This document shows positions 101 through 61,038 of a DNA stretch of 64,000 nucleotides, one piece after another. Source of the stretch: a bacterium (GTDB taxonomy: Bacteria; BMS3Abin14); the NCBI GenBank assembly GCA_029210545.1, contig JARGFV010000001.1, positions 1 to 64,000 on the forward strand, read 5' to 3'. How positions within the stretch are numbered: position 1 is the stretch's first letter; every line of letters begins with the position of its first letter. The notes under the pieces were generated by a model, which saw only the letters and a program-made list of their open reading frames with translations, searched no databases and was not told the origin of the DNA. A program made the position numbers and the translations under genes.

Positions 101-142
101 GTTCTTATTCTTCCTTCATCCTTCTTCATTCACTTTTCGGTT
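101..142 (+). repeat. Degenerate heptamer array
   Basis: Six 7-bp units in register (GTTCTTA, TTCTTCC, TTCATCC, TTCTTCA, TTCACTT, TTCGGTT). The array runs into the 3' end of the minus-strand lipase gene, whose stop codon lies inside it. Confidence 0.5.
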
Positions 143-854
143 TTTGAAATCGTCCTGTTTTCAAAAAGCTTATCACCTGATCTGCCGTCTCTTCATCGAA
201 CAGGATAAGGGTGTGGGTGCTCCTGATGACGACCATGTCCGATGCTCCGGACAGTTTCGTCTCTTCAACCGAAACGGTGCCATCGTCGTCGCCGGGGATG
301 AGGGGGTTGTAGCCGCCCTCTGTACCCAGCCCTCCCGCGATGATGCCGAAGGGGCACGGCGGTAAGGGCAGTTTTTCGAAAAACTGGATGTTCTGGGCAG
401 GCAATTCCTGGCCGGCGGGACCGAAGACCCACCGATAGATGTCCAGGTCATGGAGGCGCTGGGCCGCGAAGGATCCCCGGCTGGGCGGGGCGATCATGAC
501 CATCTTCCCCAGGTGTGGCAGCCCCCCCTCGAGGGCCTTGCGCGCCACCAGGTTTCCCATGCTGTGGGCAACGAAATGCACCGTGTCCTGACCTGCCAGA
601 GCGTCCACCTTTTGCCGGACCTCCCGGGCCGCATCCTCGATGGAGACGCGGGTACTCGGATACCCGAGGTTGTAGACAGTGTAACCGGCGCCCTTGAGAC
701 GGGACTCCAGGAACTTCATGGACAAGGGGATGTTGGCGATGCCATGCAGCAGAAAAACCGTTTCCCCTGCCCATACTCTCCTGGAACTCGTGAGGACAAG
801 CAAAATGATGAGGAGAACGATAAGTCTGCGGAAGCTGATAGCGCTCATTTGCAT
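126..854 (-). CDS. Secreted alpha/beta-hydrolase (lipase/esterase, PGAP1-like)
   Basis: 242 residues. The first 30 residues form a signal peptide (basic start, hydrophobic LIVLLIILLVL, Ala before GET), so the enzyme is probably periplasmic or secreted. The fold follows the lipase/PGAP1-like pattern: the oxyanion-region HGIA near residue 38, the nucleophile elbow AHSMGN near residue 97 with Ser as the likely nucleophile, an Asp in the GDDDGT stretch and a late His in RSTHT. This is a complete Ser-Asp-His set. The substrate is unknown; close relatives act on lipids or acyl esters. It is not obviously in an operon: thrC follows on the same strand upstream, separated by a repeat array. The start ATGCAAATG has no strong ribosome site, and the second ATG (third codon) is equally possible. 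Confidence 0.8.
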   Translation of the reverse strand: MQMSAISFRRLIVLLIILLVLTSSRRVWAGETVFLLHGIANIPLSMKFLESRLKGAGYTVYNLGYPSTRVSIEDAAREVRQKVDALAGQDTVHFVAHSMGNLVARKALEGGLPHLGKMVMIAPPSRGSFAAQRLHDLDIYRWVFGPAGQELPAQNIQFFEKLPLPPCPFGIIAGGLGTEGGYNPLIPGDDDGTVSVEETKLSGASDMVVIRSTHTLILFDEETADQVISFLKTGRFQKPKSE

Positions 855-880
855 GGCAGGGAAAACGGTTTTTCTGCTGC

Positions 881-973
881 AGTGGAAAGGTTAAAGTGGA
901 AAGGGGAAAGGGGAAAGGGGGATCACCGTAAGACCTTCATTCCACCTTCCACCTTCCACATTCTACCTTCTAT
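881..973. repeat. Inverted pair of heptamer arrays between thrC and lipase gene
   Basis: Left arm 881-915: five 7-bp units of the AGTGGAA/AGGGGAA type. Right arm 939-973: five units of the CTTCCAC type, the opposite strand of the same word. The arms can pair into a long imperfect hairpin. The right arm overlaps the last codons and stop of thrC. Confidence 0.6.
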
Positions 974-7939: not shown

Positions 7940-8302
7940 GACCTTACTCTGCGCCTTTCGGTTCGGAGGCCGGGTTCGGGTGCGACGGCCTTTAGCGATT
8001 ATCGTTCCCGGTTCCTTGTCTGTAAAGACCCAAACCCGGGAACCTGTCGGAGACTCCCTGAAAGGTTCCCGGGTGTCGTATGCCGGAAAGTAATGAAAAA
8101 TGGCCTATGGCCATCAACAATTCCGGTTTGCGGATCTGGAGTGGCAACAACCAGGTGCGCATTAACCGGAAGACCCACGAATACTTTCTCCCTCCTCCCT
8201 CCTCCCTTTTACCTGCTTTTTCACACCAGGGACACTGGACTTGTAAAGGGACCGATGGTACTTTTGTTAGACCGTATACCTTGCTGATTACCGGAGGGTC
8301 CC
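7940..8302. other. Divergent intergenic region, 363 bp
   Basis: No gene recognised. It holds a strong hairpin (arms CCCGGGAACCT and AGGTTCCCGGG, 8035-8071) that could terminate or attenuate transcription. A short heptamer array lies at 8187-8207 (TCTCCCT then CCTCCCT twice). The ribosome site GGAGGG of the next gene is at its right end. It was checked for a c-di-GMP riboswitch and none was found. Confidence 0.5.
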
Positions 8303-13168: not shown

Positions 13169-13196
13169 TAGCTATCAGCTGTCAGCTGGCGGCTTT
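13169..13196 (+). repeat. Short heptamer array upstream of serA
   Basis: TAGCTAT, CAGCTGT, CAGCTGG, CGGCTTT in 7-bp register, about 30 bases before serA. Confidence 0.4.
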
Positions 13197-14914: not shown

Positions 14915-15010
14915 GACGATACGACTGAGCGACTGAACGAGAAAAGCAAGGGAACTAGTGACAAAGCCCTTCTCGCTCCGTCGCTTCGGCGTACAGTCGT
15001 CAAGTCGAAC
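14915..15010. repeat. Inverted pair of octamer arrays between serA and the beta-barrel gene
   Basis: Left arm 14915-14946: GACGATAC, GACTGAGC, GACTGAAC, GAGAAAAG. Right arm 14971-15010: TCTCGCTC, CGTCGCTT, CGGCGTAC, AGTCGTCA, AGTCGAAC, the complement strand of the same GAC-type octamer. It is the same word family as at 2492-2633. Confidence 0.6.
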
Positions 15011-15553: not shown

Positions 15554-15586
15554 AAAGCGATCCAAAAATTCAACATTCAACTTTGA

Positions 15587-15750
15587 TGACTTCGCAAAAA
15601 GTCATCAACGCCCCCCGCGCGGGGCGCCCAAATCAATGACTCACTCCGTAAGTCATTGATTTGTAAGGAAAGGGAAAACGACGCTTTTCCCTTTCCCCAG
15701 GACATTAATGAGCCAGGAAAAGTCCCGGATTGGACTTTTTGCGACTCTAT
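15587..15750 (-). repeat. MITE-1 copy B (164 bp, complete)
   Basis: Complete element in reverse orientation. It is flanked by an imperfect 9-bp duplication: CAACTTTGA at 15578-15586 and CAACCTTGA at 15751-15759. It contains four to five successive hairpins, including GGAAAGGGAAAA...TTTTCCCTTTCC and the AAATCAATGACT stem. It directly abuts the IS1182-like element. Confidence 0.85.
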
Positions 15751-15759
15751 CAACCTTGA

Positions 15760-17420
15760 TGGACCCGCAATTAGTCACGCTGCGGTTTTTTCTGGTAGTT
15801 GGTTACCAATGTACGATTGACGTATCATTTTTCTGAAATCGTCCATAGTTGACGACAACAGCTCTTTGACAGCATCAATAAGTCCCAAAACAAGCTGAGA
15901 ATGGGGTAAATAAGGCCCGTTGTCTTGGATTTTCCTGTTTCTGAACGTAGCGGCGCGCAGGATGTTGACACCTGTGGCCTTCAGGAAAACCGAGCAGGTC
16001 TCCTTGTCGAAGGCGGCGCTGTGGCGCTCCTTCTTGTGTTTGGTTCTCAACGGCGCATGGCCTTGAGGACAGGAGGTGACCTTCCCTCTCTTGGCCAGGG
16101 TGAAATCGGTGAGGCTTACACTCTTGTCCTTGCCGGGCTCCGGCCCCTTGACGGGCGAGACGACCTCGACGCTCATCTCGCTCGCTGCCTTCTCGACGTT
16201 CTCGTCGCCCCCATAGAGGGTGTCGGCCAGAACCTCCTCGGGACCCAGGTCCCGGTTCTTCGTATCCTCGATGAAGGGGATCAGGGCCTTGGCGTCACTC
16301 TTGTTGGCGGGTTCGACCGATATGTGGGTTATCAGGGAAGGCTGGCTCTTCTCCTCGCTGTTCTCGTAGGTCTCGGCGACCTGTACCTGGTAGCCCTTGC
16401 CCTTGTGCCCACTGTAGCCGGCGTCAGGGTCGGAAGGGCTTTGCAGGGAGTCGGAGGGAACGTCACGGTTGGGTTTGACCGAGGCCTTCCTCTTACCGGT
16501 CTCCCCGTCATCCTCGACAATGCACTGTTCCTTGAGAAGCCTCACCAGAAGCTGGTAGCTGGTCATGGAGGATATGCCGGGAAGTTTGCGGAACCGATCC
16601 ACCAGGTAAAACAGGTCATTGGCCAGAGTCTCAAGGGTCCTGGATGACTCGGACGGCTTGACCATGGAAAAAGCCGACTCGCCCTTTTTGGACATGTAAC
16701 GGTCGGTCAGTTCCTTGTCCAGAACATCAAACAGACCCTTGTGGTGACGCTTCAGGTTGCGCAGGAACTTCTTGATAGTGGCGACAAACAGGCCGACGCG
16801 GCCCAGATGACGCATGTTCGACTGTATGTGTACCGAGTCGATGCGCTGCTTGCTGGTGTCGACATTGAACACCACGGCAAGCTTGGCGGTCACGGACTCG
16901 AACAGGGGAAGGTAGAGGTTGTGTTCGGTAAGGATCTTCCGTATGCTCCACAGTGTTTTGGGACTGACATAGGCCTCCTCATCCGACTCACCGGTGATAT
17001 TCAAGGCGTAATGCCACTTTTTGTTGAAAGTAAACTGGTCAACCGCATCGTCATCGGTCAGATCGTGCATCTGCTGGAGGATCATCAGGCCCAGCATGGC
17101 GTATAGCTCCTTGGTGGGACGACCTTGAAGCTCGCTGTAGTGTAGGAGGAGCTTTTGAACCGGCAGTTCAGGAAGGACCTCCTCCCTGAACAGATGAGCC
17201 CAGGAGCTCTCCAGAAGCTTGCGGCGCCTGGGGCCTAAATGCTCGAAAGGATCGAACATGTCGAGGGTTTTGTAGTCTTTGGTATGGAACATGGCAACTC
17301 CTCGCAACTCATTGATTTCGTTGGCATATTCCACCATAAACCACGCCCCGTTAAAAGGAAAAACAACCTTTTATCCATGGTTTTCAAATAGTTGGAAGAA
17401 TGATACTTTTTGCGATGCCG
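15760..17420 (-). mobile_element. Defective IS1182-like insertion sequence
   Basis: The boundaries are inferred from end sequences resembling those of MITE-1. The left end reads TGGACCCGCAATTAGTC. The right end reads, on the other strand, CGGCATCGCAAAAAGTATC. MITE-1 ends have the core TCGCAAAAAGTCC. No clear target duplication is visible (AACCTTGA versus AATATTCA). It holds a single transposase gene with an internal deletion. Confidence 0.6.
15775..17292 (-). pseudogene. IS1182-family transposase with internal deletion
   Basis: 505 residues from ATG 17292, which has a GAGGAG ribosome site. The N-terminal DUF772-type region (SELQGRPTKELYAMLGLMIL) and the RNase-H-fold catalytic acids in RIDSVHIQSN and LADTLYGG are intact. 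In this family the Cys-rich FDKETC segment is normally followed by about 70 residues carrying the third catalytic residue (Glu in an IEG(T/A)-like motif) before the LKATGVNILRAA motif. Here FDKETCSVF runs directly into LKATGVNIL (junction near 15985), in frame. The loss of the Glu predicts an inactive enzyme although the frame is open. The full-length family size is about 550-580 residues. Confidence 0.75.
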
Positions 17421-17427
17421 TCAATAT

Positions 17428-17778
17428 TCAGCCTGTGCGGCTTTTGACGTAGTCGGCGATGAGGTCCTCAATATCCCCTGGAAGATCGACGAAGGCAATA
17501 CCAGCACCCGTGAGCAGTGCCCGCTCAGCCGTGTTCGAGTTCCACCTGACCACTCCCCTGACCACCATACTGTCATCTACCGGAGGCACGGAGAAGGTGA
17601 GCTCGACATTCTTTCCTACTTCCGGGACCGGCTCAATGGCAACATACACACCCAGGACGGAGATGTTGAGGATCCTGCAGACATGGCCCTTCGATCCGAT
17701 GTTCACGATACAGCCTATGTCCGTGGGTACCCTTGGCTGTTTTCGAGCGGTTATTCCGAGCACCTTGATTTTTCTCAT
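17428..17778 (-). CDS. PilZ-domain c-di-GMP-binding protein
   Basis: 116 residues from ATG 17778 (GGGGGA seven bases upstream; an upstream TTG would add five residues). It is a single PilZ domain: R12-xxx-R16 in ARKQPRV and N38-I-S40-V-L-G43 form the two c-di-GMP-binding motifs, both intact. It is therefore a likely stand-alone receptor. It starts divergently from a truncated PAS-GGDEF gene, and a second PilZ protein lies 700 bases on. The partner is unknown. Confidence 0.85.
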   Translation of the reverse strand: MRKIKVLGITARKQPRVPTDIGCIVNIGSKGHVCRILNISVLGVYVAIEPVPEVGKNVELTFSVPPVDDSMVVRGVVRWNSNTAERALLTGAGIAFVDLPGDIEDLIADYVKSRTG

Positions 17779-18312: not shown

Positions 18313-18354
18313 ACTTTCCACTCGACCTTCCTTTTCCCTTTTCCCCTTTTCCCC
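18313..18354 (+). repeat. Pyrimidine-rich heptamer array after the truncated PAS-GGDEF gene
   Basis: Units ACTTTCC, ACTCGAC, CTTCCTT, TTCCCTT, TTCCCCT, TTTCCCC in 7-bp register, starting about 20 bases after the premature stop. Confidence 0.45.
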
Positions 18355-18447
18355 CCTTCCACGCCCATTGCAGGTGGGCCTTTTCCCGGCTCAACCCTTG
18401 CATACATCATTTTTCAGGAAAGGTGCGAAACCTGAAAGGAGGAGGCA

Positions 18448-19345: not shown

Positions 19346-19521
19346 TCAACTTTGCAGACCCGCCCGGTGTTGCGGACCGTGCCCGCACACGAAAGTGGGC
19401 AACTGTACACTTTTGTGTGCAGCGAACCAGGGGATCGGCCTGAGCAAAGTGAAAAGTGATGGAAGGACCGTTCCTGGTTCCCGGGTATAAGGCTCCAGGT
19501 CCAGGAACCAGTCACGACCTT

Positions 19522-19556
19522 CTCCTTTCTCCTTTCTCCTTTCTCCTTTCTGCCTT
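19522..19556 (+). repeat. CTCCTTT heptamer array
   Basis: Four perfect CTCCTTT units followed by CTGCCTT. The rest of the 19346-19695 interval shows no gene. Confidence 0.7.
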
Positions 19557-19695
19557 CTCTCACACCCTGGCCAACCCGACAGTCCTTTCAAACCGTAGGC
19601 TGGCTAAATAAGGTTATCGTGATTAACTGTTATCAAGTTCTTATTGCGGGGCCGCTCCATTTAGCACGGCCCCCCCCGGGCGAGAGGCTGTCATC

Positions 19696-29480: not shown

Positions 29481-29508
29481 CCTCCCTCCTCCCTCCTGCC
29501 TCCTCCCT
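29481..29508 (+). repeat. CCTCCCT heptamer array
   Basis: CCTCCCT, CCTCCCT, CCTGCCT, CCTCCCT in register. Looser 7-bp periodicity of pyrimidine words extends upstream to about 29400. Confidence 0.6.
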
Positions 29509-35050: not shown

Positions 35051-35055
35051 TGCCC

Positions 35056-35360: not shown

Positions 35361-35395
35361 AGTTTACAGTTTACAGTTTACAGTTCATGGTTCAG
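35361..35395 (+). repeat. AGTTTAC heptamer array
   Basis: AGTTTAC three times, then AGTTCAT and GGTTCAG, directly upstream of the DUF3467 gene. Confidence 0.7.
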
Positions 35396-35937: not shown

Positions 35938-35993
35938 GCCTTTGTCCCTTTTCCTCAATCTTTCCTTCCTCCCTGGAAGGAGATTGAGGGAAT

Positions 35994-36130
35994 ATGGAAT
36001 GTGGAAGGTAGAAGGTAGAAGGTGGAAGAAGAGAAAAAGAACGACACCCATGCTTTTCTTCCCTATTCCCTATTCCTCATTCCCTGTTCCGATTTCTCCC
36101 TTCCCTATTCCCTATTCCCCCTTCCCCATT
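35994..36130. repeat. Long heptamer arrays, purine arm and pyrimidine arm
   Basis: 35994-36028: ATGGAAT, GTGGAAG, GTAGAAG, GTAGAAG, GTGGAAG. 36054-36130: eleven units in unbroken 7-bp register, mostly CCCTATT, with CCTCATT, CCCTGTT, CTCCCTT and similar. The second arm covers the last eight codons and the stop of the sigma-54 activator gene. Confidence 0.7.
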
Positions 36131-38897
36131 CTTTTTTTAACCCCACGGTCTTGTACATGAAATTCCTGAACCTGGTCATCGCCTCCCCCTCCTCGCGGCT
36201 GTCTGCAGGCAGGGCGCCGAGATGGCGGGCGGCCCCTCTCACCCCTCCCCCCTCGGCAAGGGCCAGCCTGTAAATTTCCAGGACAGTCCCGCGAGTCAGG
36301 TCCCGGGACATGAATGGGATGTGGACGAGCTCCCAGAAATCGCCCGCTCCCTTGCGGATCTGCCCGTAGATCGCCGCGGCGTCTCCCTGGACATTCTTGC
36401 CGTCAAGGGTGGAGAGGGAAAGAAACCTCTGGATCTCGTCCACCCCCACGATCCCGTCATCGCTTTCGAAGAGAGCTCCCTGCAGGATGGTCACAAGCTG
36501 GCGGATATTTCCGGGGAAGTCGAGATGGGAGATAAACTCCTCGGCCTCCGGCGTGATGACGGGCGGCGCGCCCCCGGCTGAATAACTCGCATGGAGACGA
36601 CCCAGGAAGTGTTTGGCCAGATCGGGGATGTCCTCCCGCCTGTCCCTGAGGGAGGGAACCCGGAGGGTCATCTCGCTGAGCCGATGGTAAAGATCCTCCC
36701 GGAAGGCACCCCTTGCGATCTCCCTTGCCAGGTCCCGGTTGGTGGCGGCGACAAAAACGACCCTGCTGAGCCGGACCTTGGTTCCTCCCAGCCGTGAAAA
36801 CTCTCCCGAATCCAGGAAGCGCAGCAGCTGGACCTGGGTCTTGAGATCAGCGTCGCCGATCTCATCGAGGAAGACCACCCCTCCGTCCGCCTCCTCGAGG
36901 ATTCCCGTCCGGTCGACATGGGCACCTGTATAGGCCCCCTTCTGGTGCCCGAACAGTTCAGTAAAGGTGAGATCTCCACTGAAAGCGGCGATATTGGTTT
37001 TGCGCAGGGGCAGTTCCAAAGCACCCCCGCCCAACTTTCTGAACTTTTCGTTGACCAGGCTGTACAGGTTGTTGAACACGAACTCCTTGCCGGCCCCCGT
37101 CTCCCCCGTTATGAGAAGGGTCGGCAGCCCCAGCTCCAGTTCCTTCTCTTTACCGCGGCTCCAGTTAAGGAGCCTGTTGGTCAAAGGTTCGGCCAGCCTG
37201 CTGATCCGCTTGACCAGGAGCTGCGAGTGGGCGCTCTTGCCGATGATATTCCCGAGCAGGTAGGAACTGACACCGGGGTCCTTGTAGGAGACCTCCTTGC
37301 GCAGCCTCGCCACCTTTCCCTCGAGTTCACTGATCTTCAGATGGTCGGCGATGCGGTTGGCGATGAGGCGGGATATGAGAAGGAGGATGCGCTGGTGTTC
37401 GACAGTGAAATAGGCCCGACGGTGGCTGTCCAGGTTGACCACTCCGAGGACCGATTCACCTAACCTGATGGGGACCGCGAGTTCCGAAGCCACGTCAGCG
37501 GCAAGGTTCCGGTAGAACCCTCCCCTGGCCGTTTCGGCATCCGTATCCGGACAAAGGTACGGTTTTCCCGTGAAAGCCACATACCCCGTCAGAGAGCGTT
37601 CCTCGGCAGGGAGTTCCTCACCACCCACCCTCAGATCGGGGATCTTCGCCTTTCTCCAGTCACGGGATTTGCCCCCCACCAGCCGCCCTTCGGCGTCATC
37701 GACGACAAGCCACTTCTCCTGGTTCCGTTCGGTCACCAAAGCGATGGAGCCCGATTCGGCGCCTACCAACTCCACAGCGCGGGAGGCGACCTTGCCCAGG
37801 AAGACCGGCATGGGAGCGTCCTCGGCGAGAAGCTCCTCGATCTCCGAAAGGACACGTATTTCGAGGTGTCCCACCGCGAAGTCAGTGATACCTGCCGCCA
37901 GGGAACTCGAATGGCTCATGAGGAGTTTGAGTTCCGGCTCGGTGAACCTGTGGGGGCGCTTCGTAAAATAGTTGATGACGCAAGTCACCTCGCCCCCCTC
38001 CCCGGAGACGGGGATCATGAGGAGGGTGCGCAGGGAAAGCCTCTTGAACACCTCCCACCGCTCGAACTCCTCTGCCAGGATATCCTCGAAAAAAAGGACC
38101 TGGGGGGCACCCGGGCGCCGGAGGACGCGGTCGCCATCGGGCATGACCAGGCGGGAAAGGAGGCTTTTGCCCTCGAGGAGGCTGATTCTCTCGAGGGTCT
38201 CGTAGATCTGGAGATCCGACGGGTCCCGGGAGGCGGCAGCCAGGATCTCCATGTACCCCCCTCTCTCCCGCTTGAGGACTTCGGGCACCGGAGACTGCGC
38301 CGATATCAGGACCGATGTCATATCGATGGCAAGGTCGATCTCGAAGGCACCTTTGAGAAGTATCCTGGCGGCATCCCTTTTCCTGGACCGGTCCAGCTGC
38401 CGGCTGAGCATGATCCGCCTGTTGAACCGGTGGGCCCTGGCGAGAATGGGCATGATCCTATTGAGGAGCTGCCGCAGTTCCTGCTTCATGTCCGACAAGA
38501 GGGCATGACTCTCGGCGGCGTCCACGGTCAGGGCACCGATGCAGTTGCCTGCATCCACGAGGGGGAAAACCGTCGCCACAGACAGGCCGCGCCGTTCGTA
38601 CCACTCCCGGTGGAGTTCGTCACTGCCCTCCCCGAGGGGGGCATCCGTCACGATCTTCGATTCCAGGAACGACCGGACGAGGGGGTTCTCCCGTCTCTGG
38701 ATAGGGATACGGGCTCCCTTCCTCTCCAGTTCTCCCTCCGGCGTGTAAAGGCACAGGAGAGCGCCCTCCCGCATATCCTCCAGGTAGACACGGATCGAGG
38801 GTACCCCGGTTCTCAGGGTCACCTCCTTGACCAGGTAGTGAAGGATGTCGAGAAGGTTCTCCTTGTCGAAGGAAAGGATCTGGTCAACGAAGGACAT
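36105..38897 (-). CDS. Sigma-54-dependent activator with three GAF domains
   Basis: 930 residues from ATG 38897 (GGGGGAG six bases upstream; ATG 38903 is the alternative). GAF-type sensory domains at about 1-150, 170-345 and 350-520, then a short coiled coil. The AAA+ domain (about 550-800) has Walker A GETGAGKE (598-605), the sigma-54 contact loop GAYTGA (654-659, Tyr for the usual Phe) and Walker B VVFLDEIGD (674-682). The Fis-type C-terminus is weak. It starts within the M23 peptidase gene end. The lack of a receiver domain suggests direct ligand or partner sensing. Targets are unknown. Confidence 0.87.
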   Translation of the reverse strand: MSFVDQILSFDKENLLDILHYLVKEVTLRTGVPSIRVYLEDMREGALLCLYTPEGELERKGARIPIQRRENPLVRSFLESKIVTDAPLGEGSDELHREWYERRGLSVATVFPLVDAGNCIGALTVDAAESHALLSDMKQELRQLLNRIMPILARAHRFNRRIMLSRQLDRSRKRDAARILLKGAFEIDLAIDMTSVLISAQSPVPEVLKRERGGYMEILAAASRDPSDLQIYETLERISLLEGKSLLSRLVMPDGDRVLRRPGAPQVLFFEDILAEEFERWEVFKRLSLRTLLMIPVSGEGGEVTCVINYFTKRPHRFTEPELKLLMSHSSSLAAGITDFAVGHLEIRVLSEIEELLAEDAPMPVFLGKVASRAVELVGAESGSIALVTERNQEKWLVVDDAEGRLVGGKSRDWRKAKIPDLRVGGEELPAEERSLTGYVAFTGKPYLCPDTDAETARGGFYRNLAADVASELAVPIRLGESVLGVVNLDSHRRAYFTVEHQRILLLISRLIANRIADHLKISELEGKVARLRKEVSYKDPGVSSYLLGNIIGKSAHSQLLVKRISRLAEPLTNRLLNWSRGKEKELELGLPTLLITGETGAGKEFVFNNLYSLVNEKFRKLGGGALELPLRKTNIAAFSGDLTFTELFGHQKGAYTGAHVDRTGILEEADGGVVFLDEIGDADLKTQVQLLRFLDSGEFSRLGGTKVRLSRVVFVAATNRDLAREIARGAFREDLYHRLSEMTLRVPSLRDRREDIPDLAKHFLGRLHASYSAGGAPPVITPEAEEFISHLDFPGNIRQLVTILQGALFESDDGIVGVDEIQRFLSLSTLDGKNVQGDAAAIYGQIRKGAGDFWELVHIPFMSRDLTRGTVLEIYRLALAEGGGVRGAARHLGALPADSREEGEAMTRFRNFMYKTVGLKKEWGRGNRE

Positions 38898-43723: not shown

Positions 43724-43810
43724 CAGTTAATGGTTTACAGTTTACTGTTCACCGTTGTTTTCTTTTAACAAACACGCTCTGACTGTAAACCGTATACCGT
43801 GAACTGTTAA
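43724..43810. repeat. Inverted heptamer arrays upstream of the FHA gene
   Basis: Left arm 43724-43758: CAGTTAA, TGGTTTA, CAGTTTA, CTGTTCA, CCGTTGT. Right arm 43783-43810: CTGTAAA, CCGTATA, CCGTGAA, CTGTTAA, the complement strand of the same word. Confidence 0.65.
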
Positions 43811-43816
43811 CTTGAC

Positions 43817-46606
43817 TTACCTGTAAATCTCGGTAGTCGATTTCGTAAAAGTCCGGCCGTCGAACTTGTACACTCCTGCCTCGGTCCCGAACCACTTGTT
43901 GTCGGCAAGATCCAGGGCCACCACGTTGACCGTCACTTTGGGCATCCCCTGGGCATCCGAGAAACGGACCCACTTGCTGCCGTCGAACCGGGCCGTTCCC
44001 TGCCCAAGGGTCCCCACCCAGACGTTCCAGCGTCCATCCACAGCCACTGACAGGACATGGTCGGAGGGCAGGCCGTCAGCGGTAGTGAAAATCCGGGTCT
44101 TTTTCCCTTCCTGTCTCAGGAGACCGGCATCCGTCCCGATCCAGAACACGCCGTTGGCGTCCATCGTCATGGAGGTCACGTTGTTGCTGGGCAGCCCCTG
44201 CTGCATTGTCCGCACGGTGAACTTGCTTCGGTCATAAAGAGCCAGTCCCTTGTCCGTACCGAACCAGATGTTGTCGAGAGGGTCGACGTACACCGAATTG
44301 ATCACATTGCTTGGAAGACCGTCACTGTAATCGTATGTCACCCAGTTGTTCTTCCCGTCGAACTGGGAAACTCCGCGGTCGGTTCCCAACCAGATGAAAC
44401 CGAGGCGATCAACCGCAAGCGCCTTGACCGTGTTACTTATGAGGCCCTTGGCGGAGGTGTAGTTCTTACGGCTTTTGCTTTCGATATCCACCCTGAAAAG
44501 CCCCTCCGTTCCGCCGACCCACAGGTAGTCACCCTGGATGACACTTGGGTGGATGAAAACGCCGTTGGAATTGTCCCGCCAGATCCCGCTGGAGAGCCGG
44601 TACGCTGCCGTTTTTACCTTCTCCCGATTTCCCGCCTTGTCCACAGCGAAATATTTCACCGTGATATCGTCGTTGAGAGAGAGGGGCTTTGTGTAGGCGG
44701 GTGCCTGGTCTGACGGCTGCGAACCGTCCAGGGTATAGCGAATCCTTGCGCCCTCCTCGGATTTCAACTCCAGGATAATGGGTGGGTTGTATTCCCCGGG
44801 AGCAGGAAATGGCAACGTAAACGGCGCTATCGTGTCGATGAAATATTCAGCGACCTGAGCCGGCTCCTTGTTCCCGGCGCTATCCACCGAATAATAGGAG
44901 AGCTTCTCCGTGCGGTCTACCACAAAAGGTCCCGCATAGGCTGTAAAATCGTTCACCCCGGCCCGGCGGACAAATATGGTGCCCTGCTTCTCCGAAACGA
45001 GGGTGACGCTCACCGGACGGTTGAAGTAACCGGGGTCCGGCTCGATGCGTGTGGAGGGCGGCGTCGTGTCGAAGCTGTACCGCTCGACCTGGATCTCCTC
45101 ACGGTTGCCTGAATCGTCGGTCCCGTAGAACTTGAGGACCGTATCCTTTGTGATACGGACGGGACCCCGGTATCTCGGGGAAGCTTCTGTGGGTGAGATC
45201 CCGTCTGTAGTGTACCGGATCACAGCACCCTCTTCACCGACAAGACTGACTGTGACCTCGCCCGAGAAAGTGCCTCCAGGCGGCTGTGCGGCGGTATCCG
45301 GCGGTGTGCTGTCCAGAACGTATTCCTGGCTCCGGGGCTGGCTCCGGTTACCGACCCTGTCCACTGCGAGATAGGTCAGAACTGTATTTTTCTCGATGGT
45401 TATCGGACCCTGGTAAGGGGACGACCTGTCGGAAGGAGTGGTGCCGTCAAGGGTGTAGAAGATCTCCGCCGGTTCAGACGCCTCTATCTTGACCCTGATC
45501 CTGCCCGAATAGTCACCCCCCGGGGGACGGGGCTGGACGGTTGGGGGCTGCGTGTCGATGACATATTGGGCCGTCACAACGGGACTTCGGTTCCCGGCGG
45601 CATCCACGGCCATAAAAGAAACCACAGTATCCGCTGCCAGCCTGAGGGGGGACCGGTAAACAGGGGAGGACAGCGTGGCCTCCCGGCCATCCATCTCGTA
45701 ATGGATCTGTCCCCTTTCGCTGGAGGTCAGTGTGACCACGGTCGGTTTTCCGAACGCTCCTGCCGGCGGCTTGGCAATCACAGTGGGAGGCTGGCTGTCA
45801 ATGACGTAGTTCTCCTCGCGCACATCTTCCCGGTTGCCTGCCTCGTCGATGGCGAAGAACCGCAGGACACCGCTGCGGACGAACTGCAGCGGGCCGGAGT
45901 ACCGCGGCGAACCTGTGGACGGCCTGCTGCCGTTGATGGTGAAGTGGATGGTAGTGCCCTCTTCGCCGGACAGGGACACCGTGACGGGAGAATTGAAAAG
46001 CCCACCTGACGGTTCCGCGAGGGTCACGGGCTTTGTGGAATCGAGGGTGATGAGGTACGTTTCCTTGCGGGCCTCTTCCCGGTTGCCCGCTTCGTCCGTA
46101 GCGAAGAAACGCAGGGTCGTGTCCCTTCTCATGGCTACGGGGGAAGTGTAAGTCGATGATCCGGGGCCGGGTTCGGTGCCGTCTGTCGTGTAGGAGATGA
46201 CGGCTCCCTCCTCGGACTTGAGCCGAACGGACACGGGGTGGAAGAACTTCCCTCCTGACGGCAGGGCCGTGGTCACAGGCGGTTCTGTGTCAAGGCGGAC
46301 GGCGTAACTGGCAGACTGGACAGTTGACCTGTTACCGAACCTGTCCTCGGCGAAATAGCCCACCCTTGTGTCCCGCTTGATCCGAACAGGGGAAAGGTAT
46401 GGCATGGGCTGCCCATCATCCAGTGCGATGAAGACCGATGCTCCCGGTTCACTGGACAAGACGACGGATATGACCTCGTGGTACTTTCCCGGAACGGGCT
46501 GGATCTGGACCTGGGGAGGAGTCCGATCGATGGGCCAGAGCCAGGCCAGAACTGCCAGGAGAGCAAACAGAATGGCCAGAGACAGGTAACTTTTGCCTTT
46601 CATCAA
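43817..46606 (-). CDS. Giant exported protein: eight beta-sandwich repeats plus propeller
   Basis: 929 residues, N-terminal hydrophobic signal/anchor (about 8-25). Residues about 28-690 contain eight tandem ~84-residue chitobiase/beta-hexosaminidase C-terminal-type domains. Each opens with PP or P and a P-GGxF/Y motif, then a YTxDGxxP core, and closes with (F/Y)xAxDxAGNRE. Residues about 700-929 form propeller blades such as VFWIGTDAGLLR and IWLGTDRGVSQF. It is probably a surface protein, perhaps binding polysaccharide. It overlaps the actin-like gene by four bases. Its paralogue is at 53787-55889. Confidence 0.8.
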   Translation of the reverse strand: MMKGKSYLSLAILFALLAVLAWLWPIDRTPPQVQIQPVPGKYHEVISVVLSSEPGASVFIALDDGQPMPYLSPVRIKRDTRVGYFAEDRFGNRSTVQSASYAVRLDTEPPVTTALPSGGKFFHPVSVRLKSEEGAVISYTTDGTEPGPGSSTYTSPVAMRRDTTLRFFATDEAGNREEARKETYLITLDSTKPVTLAEPSGGLFNSPVTVSLSGEEGTTIHFTINGSRPSTGSPRYSGPLQFVRSGVLRFFAIDEAGNREDVREENYVIDSQPPTVIAKPPAGAFGKPTVVTLTSSERGQIHYEMDGREATLSSPVYRSPLRLAADTVVSFMAVDAAGNRSPVVTAQYVIDTQPPTVQPRPPGGDYSGRIRVKIEASEPAEIFYTLDGTTPSDRSSPYQGPITIEKNTVLTYLAVDRVGNRSQPRSQEYVLDSTPPDTAAQPPGGTFSGEVTVSLVGEEGAVIRYTTDGISPTEASPRYRGPVRITKDTVLKFYGTDDSGNREEIQVERYSFDTTPPSTRIEPDPGYFNRPVSVTLVSEKQGTIFVRRAGVNDFTAYAGPFVVDRTEKLSYYSVDSAGNKEPAQVAEYFIDTIAPFTLPFPAPGEYNPPIILELKSEEGARIRYTLDGSQPSDQAPAYTKPLSLNDDITVKYFAVDKAGNREKVKTAAYRLSSGIWRDNSNGVFIHPSVIQGDYLWVGGTEGLFRVDIESKSRKNYTSAKGLISNTVKALAVDRLGFIWLGTDRGVSQFDGKNNWVTYDYSDGLPSNVINSVYVDPLDNIWFGTDKGLALYDRSKFTVRTMQQGLPSNNVTSMTMDANGVFWIGTDAGLLRQEGKKTRIFTTADGLPSDHVLSVAVDGRWNVWVGTLGQGTARFDGSKWVRFSDAQGMPKVTVNVVALDLADNKWFGTEAGVYKFDGRTFTKSTTEIYR

Positions 46607-47628
46607 GCCTCCCTTTCAGGTGGTCCGTCATAATAGTAACGGCCGTACTTGACGTAACCCGACACGTTTCCCAGTCGGGGATCATCCTGTGTCTTGAGGA
46701 GCGCCAGTTCTCCGCGGATCAGGGGCTGAAGATATTCGAAGAGGGCCTCTCCCCCTCCGCCGGCGAGAAGGACCACATCCAGGTCCCAGTCATCGACCCA
46801 GATCCTCTCCATGTCGCTCACAACGGCCGTCGCCAGCCTGCCGAACACCTCGTTCTTGACCTTGGTCAGGTCGTATTCGGCCCCCCTGATCTTGATACTT
46901 CCCTCCCGGACAGCGTCGTATAGCCGGTAGATCTCAACGTTCACACCGCTCATCTCGTTGAGAGCCTCGGAGATGAACTGGAACCCCTTGGAGATGCCGG
47001 TATCGGTTGTCCGGCTGCCCCTCTCGGAGTGCCTGAGCCCCTTGCATACGGTAAAATCGGTTGTTTTGAACCCGATATCGACGACCCCTATCTTCTGCCG
47101 GGCCATGTCCGGTCTCAGGAGGGTACCGTCCTCACGGAAAAGGTAGTCGACGAGGCTGCCATAAGGCTGGGGGATCACCTTCACGCGGTTGACGGACAGT
47201 GCCATCTCCCGGCTTTCAGAGCCGTTGTGAACCTTCAGTTCATGTTCACCGGAAAGGGCAGCCGTCAGCTTGTCCTTGTACTCCATGTAGTAGCCCACGG
47301 GAAGGCCGGTCACGACGTTAACCGGGACCCTGCTCGGGGCGATCTTGGCCAGCCCGGCCAGAGCGAGGGTCTTGAACTGCTGGGTGACCATCTGTGCCTG
47401 ATCGAGGGTGAACTGCCGGACCCGGGACTCCGACTCGGCAAGATCCCCCACGAAAAAAGAGCGGTCCCCCAGGCTCATGTGCAGGCCGGAAACACCTTCC
47501 CCCGAAAAAAAGTTCTCGTCCATGGACCTCGGCTGAGGCTCACCTATTATCGACTTGAACAAGACGGTAGTCTCACCGTCCGTGGCCTTGGTGAAACCGA
47601 AACCGACGTCAATTCCTACCATCAGCAT
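46603..47628 (-). CDS. ParM/Alp-type actin-like ATPase
   Basis: 341 residues from ATG 47628 (GGGAGG six bases upstream; the start overlaps the upstream gene by 20 bases). The actin fold is visible: phosphate-1 VGIDVGFGFTKA at the N-terminus, VVTGLPVGYY near 105, phosphate-2 GVVDIGFKTTDF near 180, and the adenosine motif VLLAGGGGEALF near 290. This pattern fits the plasmid-type ParM/Alp7/archaeal Ta0583 branch, not MreB or FtsA. There is no partition adaptor or centromere-like array alongside. Its operon partners are an unrecognised 623-residue protein and a giant exported protein. A filament in envelope assembly or an unknown machine is possible. Confidence 0.83.
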   Translation of the reverse strand: MLMVGIDVGFGFTKATDGETTVLFKSIIGEPQPRSMDENFFSGEGVSGLHMSLGDRSFFVGDLAESESRVRQFTLDQAQMVTQQFKTLALAGLAKIAPSRVPVNVVTGLPVGYYMEYKDKLTAALSGEHELKVHNGSESREMALSVNRVKVIPQPYGSLVDYLFREDGTLLRPDMARQKIGVVDIGFKTTDFTVCKGLRHSERGSRTTDTGISKGFQFISEALNEMSGVNVEIYRLYDAVREGSIKIRGAEYDLTKVKNEVFGRLATAVVSDMERIWVDDWDLDVVLLAGGGGEALFEYLQPLIRGELALLKTQDDPRLGNVSGYVKYGRYYYDGPPEREA

Positions 47629-49480
47629 AAGTGCCCTCCCCGGATCCGGCGCTGCGAACCGTGTCCATGACATCGTCACTGATCCTGTACTGCTGCTGGA
47701 ATTCCCTCTCCAGTTCCTCGATCCTCATCATGTCGATGCCGCTGCTGTCGATGAACTCGTCCCTGGCTGACGCGTCCCTGGACTTGATCGCCCGGGGAAG
47801 GACCGAACCGAAATAGATCCGCTCCGTCTTCAGGTCCTCGAGGGTCTGGCGGAAGAAGATCTCCGGAACATCCGGCCTCACCAGTCCCCTCGAGACAAGC
47901 ATCTTGCGGACATCCGCGATAAAGGAAGTTTCCTCCTCGAATCCCTTGAGAGAACGTCCGAACTTCTTCAGCCACCTGTCCATTGCGGTCTTGACGATCC
48001 TGTATTCACGTTCCTCGCGAACAAGGTCCTCCATGAAGATGGTGACATCCTGGAGGGAACGGTCGCCTGTTTCAATGCTGGAGACCCCCTCGAATAGAAA
48101 TTCGACCTTTTTCCGCCCGTACTGCGGGAGGTAGAGGTTCTTCATGACCGGAACGATGAAAAGATCATGAAAAAGGTTTTCCTGGACCTCGTCGAAGATT
48201 TTTTTATTCAGGAGAAGGCTGCGCAGCTTGTCTTCCGGCAGTTTCTCCTCTTCGTGGAACGCGAGCCGGTTCACGGTATGATAGACGTTGTCGAAACGGT
48301 CGAAGAAAGTGACGATGTTACCGAACTCCTCCAGGCTGTCGGTGCTGCCCGTCTCCATGCTGAGTTCGTCGCACTCCTTTCCCACCTCGATGAGGATGCG
48401 GTCAAAAGCCGACTCCCGCTGTTCAAGAGCAAGGAGCTTGGACTTGAGGAGCTTGAGGAGATCCTCTTTTTCAATGCGCTCACCAACCTGCCTGGCCTGG
48501 ATAAGGATCGCTTCCAGAACCGCGCGGACCTCCACGAGGTAAGCCGGTTCGTCAACAGCGAGGATCTCGCGGTCGCCGATGAGCTTTTCATCCAGGGAGT
48601 TGAGCAGGTTGACGGGGATCCCCTTTCGAAGCGCCACCGTCCTGATCCGCGAGATGCGGGCGCGGTCGTCAAAGAGAACCTCGTCCCTGCCCCTGATCTG
48701 GACGAGGACCGAACGGTACTCCTCAACCACCTGCCTGTTTCCCGGGGACCTGTACATGACGTCGATCTTCATCCGTTCCTGGGAATAGGGATCGATAGCC
48801 AGGCTGGCGGCCAGGTCTTCCAGGGCGGCAGTCTCCTCATCGCCTATGGTCTGTGACGCCGCGTACAGATCCTCGATCTTGCGGTAAAAAAGCAGGTGGG
48901 AACGGTTGACGAACTTCATGAGGAAGAAAACCGATGCCAGCTTTGACCAGTGTGTCCTGAGTTCGTCAACGATCCGGGAGTCATCCTCATCCTTGTTAAG
49001 GGGAAACCGCTTCAACGAACGCCCGAGAATGCGGAGGATCTCTTCCTGCTGTTTTTTCAGGGGGGCCGGGGAAAGGAACTGGACGAAGAAGTAATAATTG
49101 AAGACCGCATGACCGCGCAGGAATATATGCCGGTAATCGACCCGGGCCGTGGTGTCGTCGGAAAAGATGATCTTTCCGGGATCATCGTGCCGCACGCCGA
49201 AAACCACCAGACGGTTGATCACATCCTGCTTGACCAGATCTTCAATGGGCTCATCCACACCGAACATGTAGGGGCAAAAGGTCCCTCCATTGCCCGTATG
49301 GACAAGGGTCTCCGGACCGAGAAGGAACTCGTTGCCGCCAAGGAAAAACCTGTGGTGGGCCACGCCTTCTCTCTCCACCAGTTCGTGGAAATAGCGGCCG
49401 TCCAACCCTTCGCCGGACAAGGTCGCGAAGAACTCCTTGTCGCCGCCCACTTCGCCGTGGATCCTGAGATCTTTTATCAT
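47609..49480 (-). CDS. Unrecognised 623-residue protein of the actin-like operon
   Basis: Start taken at ATG 49480 (MIKDLRIHGEV); the frame is open to 49552 and no site decides. Charged, soluble, no signal peptide. An N-terminal mixed alpha/beta part (LSGEGLDGRYFHELVEREG, FRFFLGG-like strand) is followed by a long helical region (about 170-620) with heptad-like stretches such as KEDLLKLLKSKLLALEQRE. The tail ends in a predicted coiled coil (RIEELEREFQQQYR). It overlaps the actin-like gene by 20 bases, a strong sign of joint synthesis. It could be an adaptor or regulator of the filament. I do not recognise the family. Confidence 0.6.
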   Translation of the reverse strand: MIKDLRIHGEVGGDKEFFATLSGEGLDGRYFHELVEREGVAHHRFFLGGNEFLLGPETLVHTGNGGTFCPYMFGVDEPIEDLVKQDVINRLVVFGVRHDDPGKIIFSDDTTARVDYRHIFLRGHAVFNYYFFVQFLSPAPLKKQQEEILRILGRSLKRFPLNKDEDDSRIVDELRTHWSKLASVFFLMKFVNRSHLLFYRKIEDLYAASQTIGDEETAALEDLAASLAIDPYSQERMKIDVMYRSPGNRQVVEEYRSVLVQIRGRDEVLFDDRARISRIRTVALRKGIPVNLLNSLDEKLIGDREILAVDEPAYLVEVRAVLEAILIQARQVGERIEKEDLLKLLKSKLLALEQRESAFDRILIEVGKECDELSMETGSTDSLEEFGNIVTFFDRFDNVYHTVNRLAFHEEEKLPEDKLRSLLLNKKIFDEVQENLFHDLFIVPVMKNLYLPQYGRKKVEFLFEGVSSIETGDRSLQDVTIFMEDLVREEREYRIVKTAMDRWLKKFGRSLKGFEEETSFIADVRKMLVSRGLVRPDVPEIFFRQTLEDLKTERIYFGSVLPRAIKSRDASARDEFIDSSGIDMMRIEELEREFQQQYRISDDVMDTVRSAGSGEGTYADGRN

Positions 49481-49845: not shown

Positions 49846-50232
49846 ATGCTCGACCGGCCCCAAAAAAAGATCCTCGTCATCGAGGATGACCCTGATATCA
49901 GGAGCCTGACAGGATTCATTCTCCGGGACGACTACGAGGTGATCTCCAGCGAGGACGGGCGCAAGGGGATGGAAAAGGCCAGGGAGGAAAGGCCTGACCT
50001 TGTTCTCCTGGACATCTACATGGCCGGGTTATCCGGGTTCGAGGTTTGCCGTATGCTCAAGGAGGAACCGGAAACGGCCTCGATCCCGGTCATCATGCTG
50101 ACCGCCGGGGCACAGAAAGATGAGGTGTCGGAAGGGTACGCCTCGGGAGCCGACGATTACATCATCAAACCTTTTGAACCGGGAGAGCTGATTGAAAGGA
50201 TCGAAAAACTACTTTTGAGATCCAGGATCTAA
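49846..50232 (+). CDS. Stand-alone response regulator receiver
   Basis: 128 residues, a single CheY-type receiver. The acidic pair lies in EDDPDIR, the phospho-acceptor Asp in LVLLDIYMAG (near 56), Thr in MLTAGA and Lys in IIKPFEPGE. All functional residues are present. There is no output domain. It could be the partner of the orphan HisKA_2 kinase or feed a phosphorelay; no kinase is adjacent. The last codons and stop lie within a heptamer array shared with the convergent speB. Confidence 0.9.
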   Translation: MLDRPQKKILVIEDDPDIRSLTGFILRDDYEVISSEDGRKGMEKAREERPDLVLLDIYMAGLSGFEVCRMLKEEPETASIPVIMLTAGAQKDEVSEGYASGADDYIIKPFEPGELIERIEKLLLRSRI

Positions 50233-50339
50233 AATCCAGGATCCGGAAGACCACTCCCCACAAAATCAAAGACATACCTATCCAGACTGATCCCATGGGA
50301 TGCCCTGGATCTTGGATCTTAGATCCTGGGCCTTGGATG
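50217..50339. repeat. Inverted heptamer arrays joining two convergent gene ends
   Basis: Left arm 50217-50244: GAGATCC, AGGATCT, AAAATCC, AGGATCC. Right arm 50305-50339: CTGGATC, TTGGATC, TTAGATC, CTGGGCC, TTGGATG. CCAGGATCTAAAATCCAGGA (left) matches the complement of the right arm at 18 of 20 bases. The left arm contains the receiver stop codon, and the right arm contains the speB stop. Confidence 0.75.
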
Positions 50340-52998: not shown

Positions 52999-53002
52999 GG
53001 AA

Positions 53003-57224: not shown

Positions 57225-57271
57225 AACCTCTCCTCAAAAAACGGAGCGGTTTTAAGTAAAATTCCAAATTT

Positions 57272-57424
57272 GATAGGGTCGCGAAAAGTCCAATCCGGGA
57301 CTTTTCGCTCCACGGAAAGGGGAAAGCGTGGTTTTCCCTTTCCTTATAAATCAATGACTTACAGTGTGAGTCATTGATTTGGGCGCCCCGCGCGGGGCGC
57401 GTTGATGGACTTTTTGCGAGTCCA
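57272..57424 (+). repeat. MITE-1 copy E (153 bp, complete)
   Basis: From GATAGGGTCGCG to GCGAGTCCA, all five hairpins in order. Flanks CCAAATTT (57264-57271) and TCAAATTT (57425-57432) match at 7 of 8 positions. It lies 47 bases after the MDR gene. Confidence 0.9.
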
Positions 57425-57432
57425 TCAAATTT

Positions 57433-58090
57433 CGGTTCATCACAATAATGCGTACCTGTGTGTTGTCACTCCAGGACTCTTAAAGGCGATCACCACGGAG
57501 CACACAAAGAAAGCCTGAACCTGGGGGAAGACTCAGGCGCGCACCGCAAAACCCCTGAACCCTGGCGCGAAGCGCCCTTCGATCACGCCGTTGGCGTGAT
57601 AAAGCCGGGCGGAGCGGCCTTTAGCTGACCGCGCTCCCCAGAATCTCGATTGAATTGATTTTCGAGATTCTGGGGATAAAAAAACCCCATTGGCGTGGTA
57701 AGTTACGTTTCAAGCTTGAAACGACCCATGACACAATGACAGCCCATGCCGGTCTGGCCCGGGCGAGTTCGCGGAAGGGAGCAGGCTTCCCTTTCTGGTG
57801 GACCGTCACCTGCCGTTGCCCGGCAGCGGGGCCGGTTATCGTCCGTCGGAGTTCGTGATGCCATACCCGAAATTCGCCGAAAGCGCCCTTTCGGTCGGGG
57901 CTGGACGGTCAACGAGTGACGTAGGGCGGCAAGTTCAACAGCAACACGGCTCCATGCAAAAAATAGCCCCCTCAATGCCCCGACCGGAGGCCAGCCAAAA
58001 CCAATCGCGGATTTCGGGTGGTTAGTTGGCTTTTTCCTGCAATAGCGTTAATAACTGTTTTTTAGCTGTTAGCTGCCTGTTGGAGATCCA
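57433..58090. other. Intergenic region with several palindromes
   Basis: No gene recognised. It contains ATCACGCCGTTGGCGTGAT, a long hairpin with arms CCCCAGAATCTCGA and its complement (57636-57675), a perfect 18-bp palindrome CGTTTCAAGCTTGAAACG (57706-57723), and two TTAGCTG heptamers (58062-58075) just before the next gene. Open frames here have no family resemblance. Confidence 0.4.
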
Positions 58091-59504: not shown

Positions 59505-59728
59505 AACTGTCCGGAGGGTGGGCGGTGTTACTGCTGATCATCACAGTACTCATGGCCCTGGCCGTCGGCTGGCACCGCGAGATCGCCTCCAGATACCCGA
59601 TATCGGACCTGCCCTTCGTGGATCTTCAGCGTCTTTCAAATCAGATCGAATCGGGCAACGTCGGTAAAACAGGAGCGCTGTATTACAGGAAAAGTGATGC
59701 TGGGGCTGATACCACCGAGATCCGTTGA
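59438..59728 (+). CDS. Small membrane protein with MITE-derived N-terminus
   Basis: 96 residues. Residues 1-22 (MKKRISRQIFKQRAEVSRHA) are encoded by the right end of MITE-2. Residues 26-45 form a hydrophobic helix (GWAVLLLIITVLMALAVGW), followed by a short periplasmic part. The stop overlaps the amrS start. Ribosome site is weak. No family recognised. The gene is either a genuine coupled partner of amrS whose start was replaced by the element, or a decaying remnant. Confidence 0.5.
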   Translation: MKKRISRQIFKQRAEVSRHAARELSGGWAVLLLIITVLMALAVGWHREIASRYPISDLPFVDLQRLSNQIESGNVGKTGALYYRKSDAGADTTEIR

Positions 59729-60686
59729 GTGCACCTTGTGCCCGAAATTGTGCCGCCTGGCCGAGGGCCAGCGCGGGGATTGCCGGGTACGGTACAACGA
59801 CGGGGGGAACCTTTACTCCCTTGTCTACGGGAAAGTGTGCTCGGTCCATGTCGATCCTGTGGAAAAGAAACCGATGTACCATTTCCTCCCGGGCTCCGGG
59901 GCCTTTTCCGTTGCCACCGCCGGATGCAACCTCCACTGCCTGTTCTGCCAGAATTGGGAGATATCCCAGGCCGATCCGGAGGATCTCAACAATTCCGATC
60001 TGCCTCCGGAAAAAGCCGTAACCCTGGCTGCCAAAGCCGGTTGCGCTTCCATCGCCTATACCTATTCGGAACCTGTGATCTTTTACGAATATCTGGAGGA
60101 TACCGCCGCCCTGGCCCGGGAAAGGGGCATCCGCAACATCATGGTCACCGCGGGGTTCATCAACCGGGACCCCCTCCGCCGCCTCTGCAAGATCGTGGAC
60201 GGCGCCAACGTGGACCTGAAGGGGTTCACGGAAAAATATTACAGGGAAGTCTGTTTCGGGAACCTGCGCACCGTCCTGGACACCCTGGTCACCATGCGGA
60301 AAGAGGGTGTCGTCCTTGAAGTGACCAACCTCATCGTTCCCACCCTCAACGACGGGATGAACACCATCAGCCAGATGTGCCGGTGGATTGTGTCCGAACT
60401 GGGAGACGAGGTGCCCCTTCATTTTTCCCGCTTCTCACCCATGTACCGGCTCAAGGACCTTCCGCCCACCCCCGTCCAGACCCTGAGAAGGGCACGGGAG
60501 ACCGCCCTGGAGGCGGGGCTGAAGTACGTGTACACGGGCAACGTGCCCGGGGACCCCGGGGAGGACACCTTCTGTCCCTCCTGCGGGAAGATGGTCATCG
60601 ACCGCCACGGGTACCGCATCCTGAAGTACGACGTGGTGGACGGGAAGTGTAAATATTGCGGCCAAAAAATCTACGGATTATTTTAG
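59697..60686 (+). CDS. amrS: AmmeMemoRadiSam radical SAM enzyme
   Basis: 329 residues from ATG 59697 (AGGA six bases upstream; GTG 59694 is possible). The radical SAM cluster motif is Cys77-xxx-Cys81-xx-Cys84 (AGCNLHCLFCQNW). An N-terminal Cys set (Cys12, 15, 19, 29) and a C-terminal zinc-ribbon (CPSC and CKYC) flank the barrel. The SYTYSEP-like segment AYTYSEPVIFYEY and NIMVTAGFIN are characteristic of AmrS. The family is always found with AMMECR1 and MEMO-type proteins, here fused in the next gene. The reaction is not established to my knowledge. Confidence 0.93.
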   Translation: MLGLIPPRSVECTLCPKLCRLAEGQRGDCRVRYNDGGNLYSLVYGKVCSVHVDPVEKKPMYHFLPGSGAFSVATAGCNLHCLFCQNWEISQADPEDLNNSDLPPEKAVTLAAKAGCASIAYTYSEPVIFYEYLEDTAALARERGIRNIMVTAGFINRDPLRRLCKIVDGANVDLKGFTEKYYREVCFGNLRTVLDTLVTMRKEGVVLEVTNLIVPTLNDGMNTISQMCRWIVSELGDEVPLHFSRFSPMYRLKDLPPTPVQTLRRARETALEAGLKYVYTGNVPGDPGEDTFCPSCGKMVIDRHGYRILKYDVVDGKCKYCGQKIYGLF

Positions 60687-60692
60687 GCCGCA

Positions 60693-61038
60693 GCACGAAG
60701 CGCAAAGTTCGAAGAACGAAGGAAGATGGACTCGCAAAAAGTCCATCAACGCACCCCGCGCGGGGTGCCCAAATCAATGACCTGTACCGTAAGTCATTGA
60801 TTTGTAAGGAAAGGGAAAACGACGCTTTTCCCTTTCCGTTGAGCAAAAAGTCCCGGATCGGACTTTTTGCGACCCTGTCAAGGAAGAGCTTGCAAAAAAG
60901 TCCTTCCATTGAATCATTCCCTTTGTTCTTAAGTAACATGAGGGCAACCTAAAATGAAACATAACGCGTCAAATCCGGACAAAAAAAGCAAAGGAAATAG
61001 CAGCGACCTCCCTTCGCGCTTCGCTCTTCGCGCTTCGT
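60693..61038. repeat. Inverted heptamer arrays flanking a MITE-1
   Basis: Left arm 60693-60720: GCACGAA, GCGCAAA, GTTCGAA, GAACGAA. Right arm 61011-61038: CCTTCGC, GCTTCGC, TCTTCGC, GCTTCGT, the complement of the left word. MITE-1 copy F was inserted at the edge of the left arm. Confidence 0.65.
60727..60879 (-). repeat. MITE-1 copy F (153 bp, complete, exact target duplication)
   Basis: Reverse orientation, TGGACTCGCAAAAAGTCC to GCGACCCTGTC. Perfect 8-bp duplication AAGGAAGA at 60719-60726 and 60880-60887. This is the clearest proof that MITE-1 is mobile with an 8-bp target site. It sits between amrS and the AmrB-AmrA gene. Confidence 0.95.

Follow-up and report, generated by a model that had tools for sequence, protein, structure and literature searches.

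Among the longer simple repeats, heptamers are reported to be the most frequent kind in the majority of the prokaryotic genomes examined (cited in PMC4679880). In Xanthomonas and Nostoc, the heptamers GGGAATC and GGGGA(C/T)T form intergenic tandem arrays (Rehm et al. 2015, PMC4692102). They are oriented outward and lie just after stop codons, often over the stop codon itself, or before starts on the other strand; Xanthomonas has 70-75 close opposite-strand pairs per genome, and both length and sequence vary between relatives. These arrays were read as quadruplexes (PMC4692102). The cyanobacterial STRR sequences include three heptamer words reported in Calothrix (PMC4692102). Geobacter metallireducens has paired opposite-strand tandem octanucleotides (GTTGCTYN and TCTCCGTS), a fivefold heptanucleotide class (MTYCTGA) and a fourfold GGGACCG heptamer (PMC2700814). 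They belong to a few families of 16-49 sites with a shared consensus, many of them intergenic, and were read as binding sites of global regulators (IHF/HU); sites of classes 1 and 2 are paired at variable distance, and the description includes neither locus-specific words nor turnover (PMC2700814). In marine Beggiatoaceae, intergenic direct repeats of TAACTGA face start codons, and inverted pairs are almost absent, with one case (PMC4679880).

The window studied here comprises the opening 64,000 nucleotides of contig C1 in a 2.72-Mb genome (241 contigs, 97% complete) from BMS3Abin14, a phylum represented in the genome set used by one family (12 genomes, 8 genera). Its proteins are similar to those of Geobacter/Pelobacter-type Deltaproteobacteria, among them a TIGR04442 protein and a GPMC-type regulator (score under its cut-off); the best named relatives of MreB are Deltaproteobacteria MAGs (74% identity). 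Genome-wide figures come from samples of 446-864 kb per genome, about 16-37% of each, with genes called by a simple, uncurated hexamer model. The genomes are mostly MAGs; the relative G001 is a single contig and has a period spectrum like the others. Array and pair counts vary with the threshold, and identical thresholds were applied to the controls.

An earlier note on this DNA claimed a window-wide system of degenerate tandem arrays with a 7- or 8-bp period, and the system is real. With at least 17 of 21 matches required at a given lag, the window contains 11 runs at lag 7 and two at lag 8; the remaining lags between 2 and 13 have none, and lags 14 and 15 have 4 and 1. Scored segments of at least 10 at lag 7 yield 14 arrays, located at most of the coordinates given in that note (starts at 893, 940, 8188, 13170, 18330, 19520, 29480, 34947, 35361, 35989, 36059, 36101, 50306 and 61012), and Tandem Repeats Finder (TRF) returns about 20 period-7 rows. 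The comparison with shuffled sequence that the note had proposed gave the same answer on 464 kb, where intergenic runs number 73, 22 and 6 at lags 7, 8 and 9 and about 1-4 at most of the others; Markov shuffles produce 0.7 runs, and coding DNA of the same sample contains 13 at lag 7. In 864 kb, we found 163, 68 and 12 intergenic arrays with periods of 7, 8 and 9 bp, respectively, and 1-5 arrays for each of the lags 4-6 and 10-13. The arrays keep register and are not low-complexity tracts that lack one. Counts at lags 7 and 8 in relatives are 156 and 34 (G003), 173 and 41 (G001), and 70 and 33 (G002); 150 kb of E. coli K-12 has 0 lag-7 arrays. The identity of units falls with their distance apart (0.84, 0.78, 0.73, 0.68); stepwise duplication would predict closer units to be more alike, as measured.

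The window contains the following arrays and facing pairs.

893-975: facing pair of an AAAGTGG/AAAGGGG array (893-920) and a TTCCACC array (940-975) in the gap 855-969; arms 893-915 and 940-962, inverted score 13, degenerate start at 881
2594-2635: 8-bp array TCCCTCAG, on the other strand CTGAGGGA; 5.2 units, lag-8 score 31.5, 97% matches in TRF
2499-2518 and 14922-14940: weaker 8-bp relatives of the 2594-2635 array
8188-8207: CTCCCTC heptamer array, unpaired
13170-13194: AGCTGTC heptamer array, unpaired
18330-18360: CCTTTTC array, 7- and 8-bp steps mixed
19520-19558: TTCTCCT heptamer array, unpaired; 5.6 units, score 27, the top heptamer score in the window
29480-29508: TCCTCCC heptamer array, unpaired, between mreB and a peptidylprolyl isomerase gene
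31557-31682: facing pair in a convergent gap; arms 31557-31579 (AGTAATC type) and 31660-31682, 83% complementary; sequence order AGTATCCAGTAGTCAGTAAACAG, GC-rich hairpin, CTGATTACTGCCTACTGATTACT
34947-35051: facing pair AGTACTA in a convergent gap; arms 34947-34973 and 35025-35051, inverted score 15; overlaps the stop codon at 34954
35361-35394: AGTTTAC heptamer array; at least 4 units, score 19.5, no partner above threshold
35989-36131: facing pair of a GGAAGGT array (35989-36028) and TTCCCTA arrays (36059-36083 and 36101-36131); inverted score 17
43733-43812: facing pair of a GTTTACA array (43733-43756) and an ACTGTAA array (43782-43812) in a 108-bp gap; inverted scores 12-16
50226-50325: facing pair GATCCAA in a convergent gap; arms 50226-50244 and 50307-50325
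60692-61041: facing pair of an AGCGCGA arm ending near 60721 (coordinates derived from the distance between arms) and a CTTCGCG array (61012-61041), about 290 bp apart, with a copy of a dispersed 160-nt element between the arms

The arrays that the earlier note placed at 31564 and 43783 exist but are degenerate (scores 8-10), and its GGTTCAC array at 3176 is a weak inverted GTTCAC/GTGAAC cluster. Its 8-bp family of the GACTGAGC type is clear at 2594-2635 and weak at 2499 and 14922. The facing inverted pairs, their fixed polarity and the joint turnover of their arms had escaped it. An Rfam search of the window at gathering score found only a tRNA and no other structured RNA.

The dispersed element of about 160 nt contains several hairpins and occurs at 57262-57437 and 60716-60885 in opposite orientation, with further copies or parts near 15565-15757, 23186 and 65. 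At least 71 copies of about 90-97% identity are present in the source genome; the element was found in 11 of the 12 family genomes and is absent from G001. Its RNA fold has an energy of -90 kcal/mol (z -9.6); the element matches no Rfam family and has the appearance of a MITE-like repeat or a structured RNA repeat. One copy lies immediately beside an IS1182-type transposase gene (15775-17337; window 15565-17430). The gene is followed by TTTTTGCGATGCCGTCAA, which is similar to the end of the 160-nt element, and this IS may therefore be what moves it. The window also encodes a fusion of the AmmeMemoRadiSam A and B families (AMMECR1-like and MEMO1-like) in one protein (60954-62624), and a large OmpL47-domain protein (43817-46603) adjoining a ParM-like actin (46603-47628) and the TIGR04442 protein (47609-49480), in an order kept in the relatives G003 and G011. 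Outside the family, private-word facing heptamer pairs were seen at L070 4527-4698, L073 782-842 and L072 13698-13772, on contigs labelled Desulfobacteraceae and Geobacteraceae.

More arrays than expected face a partner of the same word. A reverse-complement array scoring at least 10 lies within 150 bp for 37% of 193 arrays in the BMS3Abin14 genome sample, against 8% in a control that compares arrays with other gaps; the corresponding values for G003 are 37% and 13%. Same-orientation partners reach 19% against 9% in the source genome and 16% against 11% in G003, and the excess in G001 consists of same-orientation clusters, which outweigh inverted pairs. Many arrays are unpaired. The lead of lag 7 (31 vs 1-8) and inverted partners of 13 of 30 arrays in 80 named contigs, mostly deltaproteobacterial, indicate that the phenomenon is not confined to the BMS3Abin14 family. 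The arms enclose ordinary gap sequence, such as a leader or, often, a terminator. Complementarity drops to background (about 0.25-0.35) directly outside the arms on both sides, and no mirrored order of variant units between arms was found (0.789 observed vs 0.767 permuted). The arms have a common word, not a common history as blocks.

Gaps with a pair in four genomes number 142 (106 codirectional, 21 convergent and 15 divergent), which roughly matches the orientations of gaps at large (177 codirectional, 32 convergent and 41 divergent in the first sample). The arrays had been said to sit at gene ends. This is so in the source genome, where 54% lie within 30 bp of a gene end (36% expected), and in G003 (52% vs 35%); G001 and G002 have no excess within 30 bp. 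In the pooled placement within 30 bp, the excess is confined to the stop side (28% vs 17%), with none on the start side (13% vs 16%). Unpaired arrays also have the outward polarity described below for paired words (73:22 near stops, 35:12 near starts), and in this respect, as in their opposite-strand pairs, the arrays resemble those of Xanthomonas and Nostoc.

The words themselves are numerous. In 143 gaps there are 87 distinct words, against about 163 expected from letter-shuffled words, and vocabularies differ from genome to genome. The earlier claim of a separate word at each locus is right in that the words are degenerate and locus-specific, but they recur and are not unique. The commonest ones (AAACTGT, AATCAGT, AAATCTC and AGATCTC) have no G run. 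Where Xanthomonas and Nostoc have one G-rich family per genome, dozens of words occur here and both arms are replaced jointly. The analogy with the heptamers of filamentous cyanobacteria drawn in the note is correct, both being intergenic tandem heptanucleotides; in contrast to the few fixed STRR words in perfect copies, 87 words are present here and neighbouring units are about 0.84 identical. The statement that nothing of the kind was described in this kind of bacterium was too strong, as G. metallireducens, a bacterium of related kind, has tandem 7/8-mers in opposite-strand pairs (PMC2700814). Unlike those sites, the present words have no consensus alignable across the genome, only a degenerate core.

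This core has a nearly fixed polarity. Paired loci with the same word agree in polarity in 166 comparisons and disagree in 4 (58:3 across genomes); these comparisons are pairwise and not independent, and distinct words were therefore taken as units. The 61 distinct paired words align to a 5'-arm core AG(T/A)NNNC, read into the gap, in which about two of seven positions are common to the words. Their 5' arms contain AG in 48 cases and CT in 6, and CAG in 21 and CTG in 0. The polarity alignment scores 178, compared with 146 (SD 5) under random polarity, and dissimilar words correctly predict which way a given word points in 52 of 61 cases, or in 46 of 61 when similar words are excluded more strictly. 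A strand-free motif search shows a small excess (3.79 bits vs 3.45 for shuffled words). Background composition was rejected as the source of the polarity: array-free gaps have this tendency in a weak form, with AG/CT ratios of 1.32 after stops and 0.91 before starts, compared with 48:6 in the distinct paired words. In the 80 named contigs from other taxa, 12 cases follow the AG/CT rule and 6 go against it. The Beggiatoaceae word TAACTGA, read outward as TCAGTTA (AGTTATC), fits AG(T/A)NNNC; in contrast to that single-word system, many words occur here, pairs dominate and no start-side excess is seen.

At homologous loci of relatives, a comparison that the note had asked for, the word itself usually differs, and does so in both arms. 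In 11 comparisons of 9 matched pair-bearing gaps, the word is different in 10. After the best rotation, differing words match at 2-5 of 7 positions, about chance level, and the two arms within a genome agree at 72-94% at the matched gaps. The GATCCAA pair of the window gap 50233-50318 is a CAGAACG pair in G003 and an AGTCCAG pair in G011; the pair at 31557-31682 corresponds to an AGCACGC pair in G003 and an AGAACGC pair in G011; and the CCAAAGT pair at L024 3085-3198 is an ATCTCAA pair in G003 with similar arm positions. In the gap between mreB and the peptidylprolyl isomerase gene, G003 has a CTGTTCA array instead of TCCTCCC. Different words in both arms at the same gap point to joint renewal of the arms. 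At L159 8193-8641, another clear case of changed words, arms about 380 bp apart surround an alignable terminator and leader, and the sequence between them is the ancestral gap sequence. In length-matched gaps, array presence is common to the source genome and G003 (9/2/3/14, Fisher p=0.0015), and no significant sharing with G002 was found (4/11/3/26, p=0.21). Tandem heptamers, inverted pairs and outward polarity have already been described for single words; what is new is a vocabulary that is large and changes, together with the replacement of both arms jointly.

We tentatively propose that the arrays are mainly a by-product of replication, in which fold-back slippage transfers units from one arm to the other where the gap is under weak constraint. 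Slippage by about 7 nt at a time would lengthen a heptamer. A strand exposed as single-stranded DNA could then fold back, with the arms pairing in any 7-nt register, and polymerase would copy a unit or two of one arm into the other before the strand unfolds. A new word would thus spread through both arms unit by unit, with unit order lost and flanks and loop untouched, and arrays would persist where constraint is weak, above all immediately downstream of stop codons. Judging by the polarity rule, AG-type heptamers in the 5' arm may be favoured at some step of replication or repair. The E. coli DnaG primase initiates at CTG-type sites, and primase initiation at such sites in the 3' arm is a candidate for this step.

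Evidence for a replication by-product includes the intergenic excess of period 7 with little in coding DNA, the frequency of facing same-word arrays, the change of word in both arms between relatives, the greater likeness of neighbouring units, the ancestral sequence between the arms at L159 and the occurrence of pairs in every gap orientation; the mRNA strand is not biased, as detailed below. Exchange by units rather than by blocks is indicated by the non-complementary flanks and by the unit order, which is not mirrored. Whole-arm gene conversion or template switching was rejected, as neither flanks nor unit order are common to the arms. At L159, the best case, the arms still enclose the old gap sequence, which makes the insertion of an element unlikely. 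The remaining options are unit-wise exchange between arms or selection on DNA-level structure, and we lean, with reserve, towards exchange. Several observations count against fold-back copying. The step size of 7 is not accounted for by the observations, the fixed polarity demands an extra sequence preference, and same-orientation clusters outweigh inverted pairs in G001; at L159 and at window 60692-61041, exchange would have to reach across 300-400 bp, which strains the model.

Plain polymerase slippage with a 7-nt preference, the inverted pairs being chance or leftovers of terminator stems, seems to us unlikely. Slippage was proposed for the long simple sequence repeats of prokaryotes, and the 7-nt period was attributed to the DNA stretch held by polymerase (Mrazek 2007, as cited in PMC4679880 and PMC4692102). 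It is consistent with the prevalence of the 7-bp period across many unrelated genomes (PMC4679880 and the 80 named contigs), with the decay of unit identity with distance and with the near absence of arrays from coding DNA. However, it yields neither the 37% vs 8% of inverted partners nor the 48:6 polarity of distinct words and does not account for the joint word change of both arms, so that it is already strained by the pairing data.

Alternatively, selection could act on the facing arrays as a structure, either a cruciform in the DNA or a stem in the RNA, with a role in insulating neighbouring genes, terminating transcripts or protecting mRNA. In favour of such selection are the maintenance of pairing where relatives have different words in a given gap, the stop-side placement and the arms that often flank a terminator. 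On the other hand, the 106 codirectional pairs show no preference for G-U over A-C on the mRNA strand (102 G-T vs 126 A-C mismatches), folding energy of the sense strand is not below that of the antisense strand (p=0.37), pairs are present between divergent genes too, and many arrays are unpaired. Selection for an mRNA hairpin was set aside: the A-C excess hinted at by a small first sample was not a significant bias in the 106 codirectional pairs. We consider a selected structure rather improbable, and the same holds for its corollary that words drift while compensatory change maintains pairing.

Another reading, put forward for the paired repeats of G. metallireducens (IHF/HU), is that a nucleoid protein or a regulator binds the arrays. 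Such binding would fit the paired opposite-strand layout (PMC2700814) and the degenerate AG(T/A)NNNC core with its fixed polarity; this is very unlikely, since only about two of seven positions are common and the words otherwise vary by locus and by relative. Least probable is a mobile or enzyme-written element, with words placed by a Y1 (REP-type) transposase or a reverse transcriptase: genome-specific vocabularies and Y1_Tnp genes in 8 of 12 relatives would suit it, but the sequence between the arms in L159 is the conserved gap, and G011 (91% complete) has 12 lag-7 arrays in 33 kb and no Y1_Tnp match. REP/REPIN elements have a fixed palindromic unit of 20-25 nt that a Y1 transposase moves; the arrays have no fixed unit, but Y1_Tnp genes do occur in those 8 genomes. 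The reverse transcriptase was dropped as word writer in the absence of RVT_1 from the source genome, and a search of a plasmid collection found no similar DNA.

It is conceivable, if doubtful, that a general, word-independent bacterial process keeps facing arrays in the same word, rewrites both periodically and fixes their polarity. If so, the single-word systems known from Xanthomonas, Nostoc, Geobacter and Beggiatoaceae would be particular instances of it, and their layout would have a cause other than those given in the quadruplex, IHF and translational readings. Why tandem repeats of 7 nt prevail between bacterial genes has usually been answered word by word. Dozens of words with a common layout, polarity and joint turnover make the layout separable from any particular sequence and point to a common generating process. 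They caution against reading every heptamer family as a regulatory site, and they make the facing arrays of these bacteria fast-evolving, self-paired markers.
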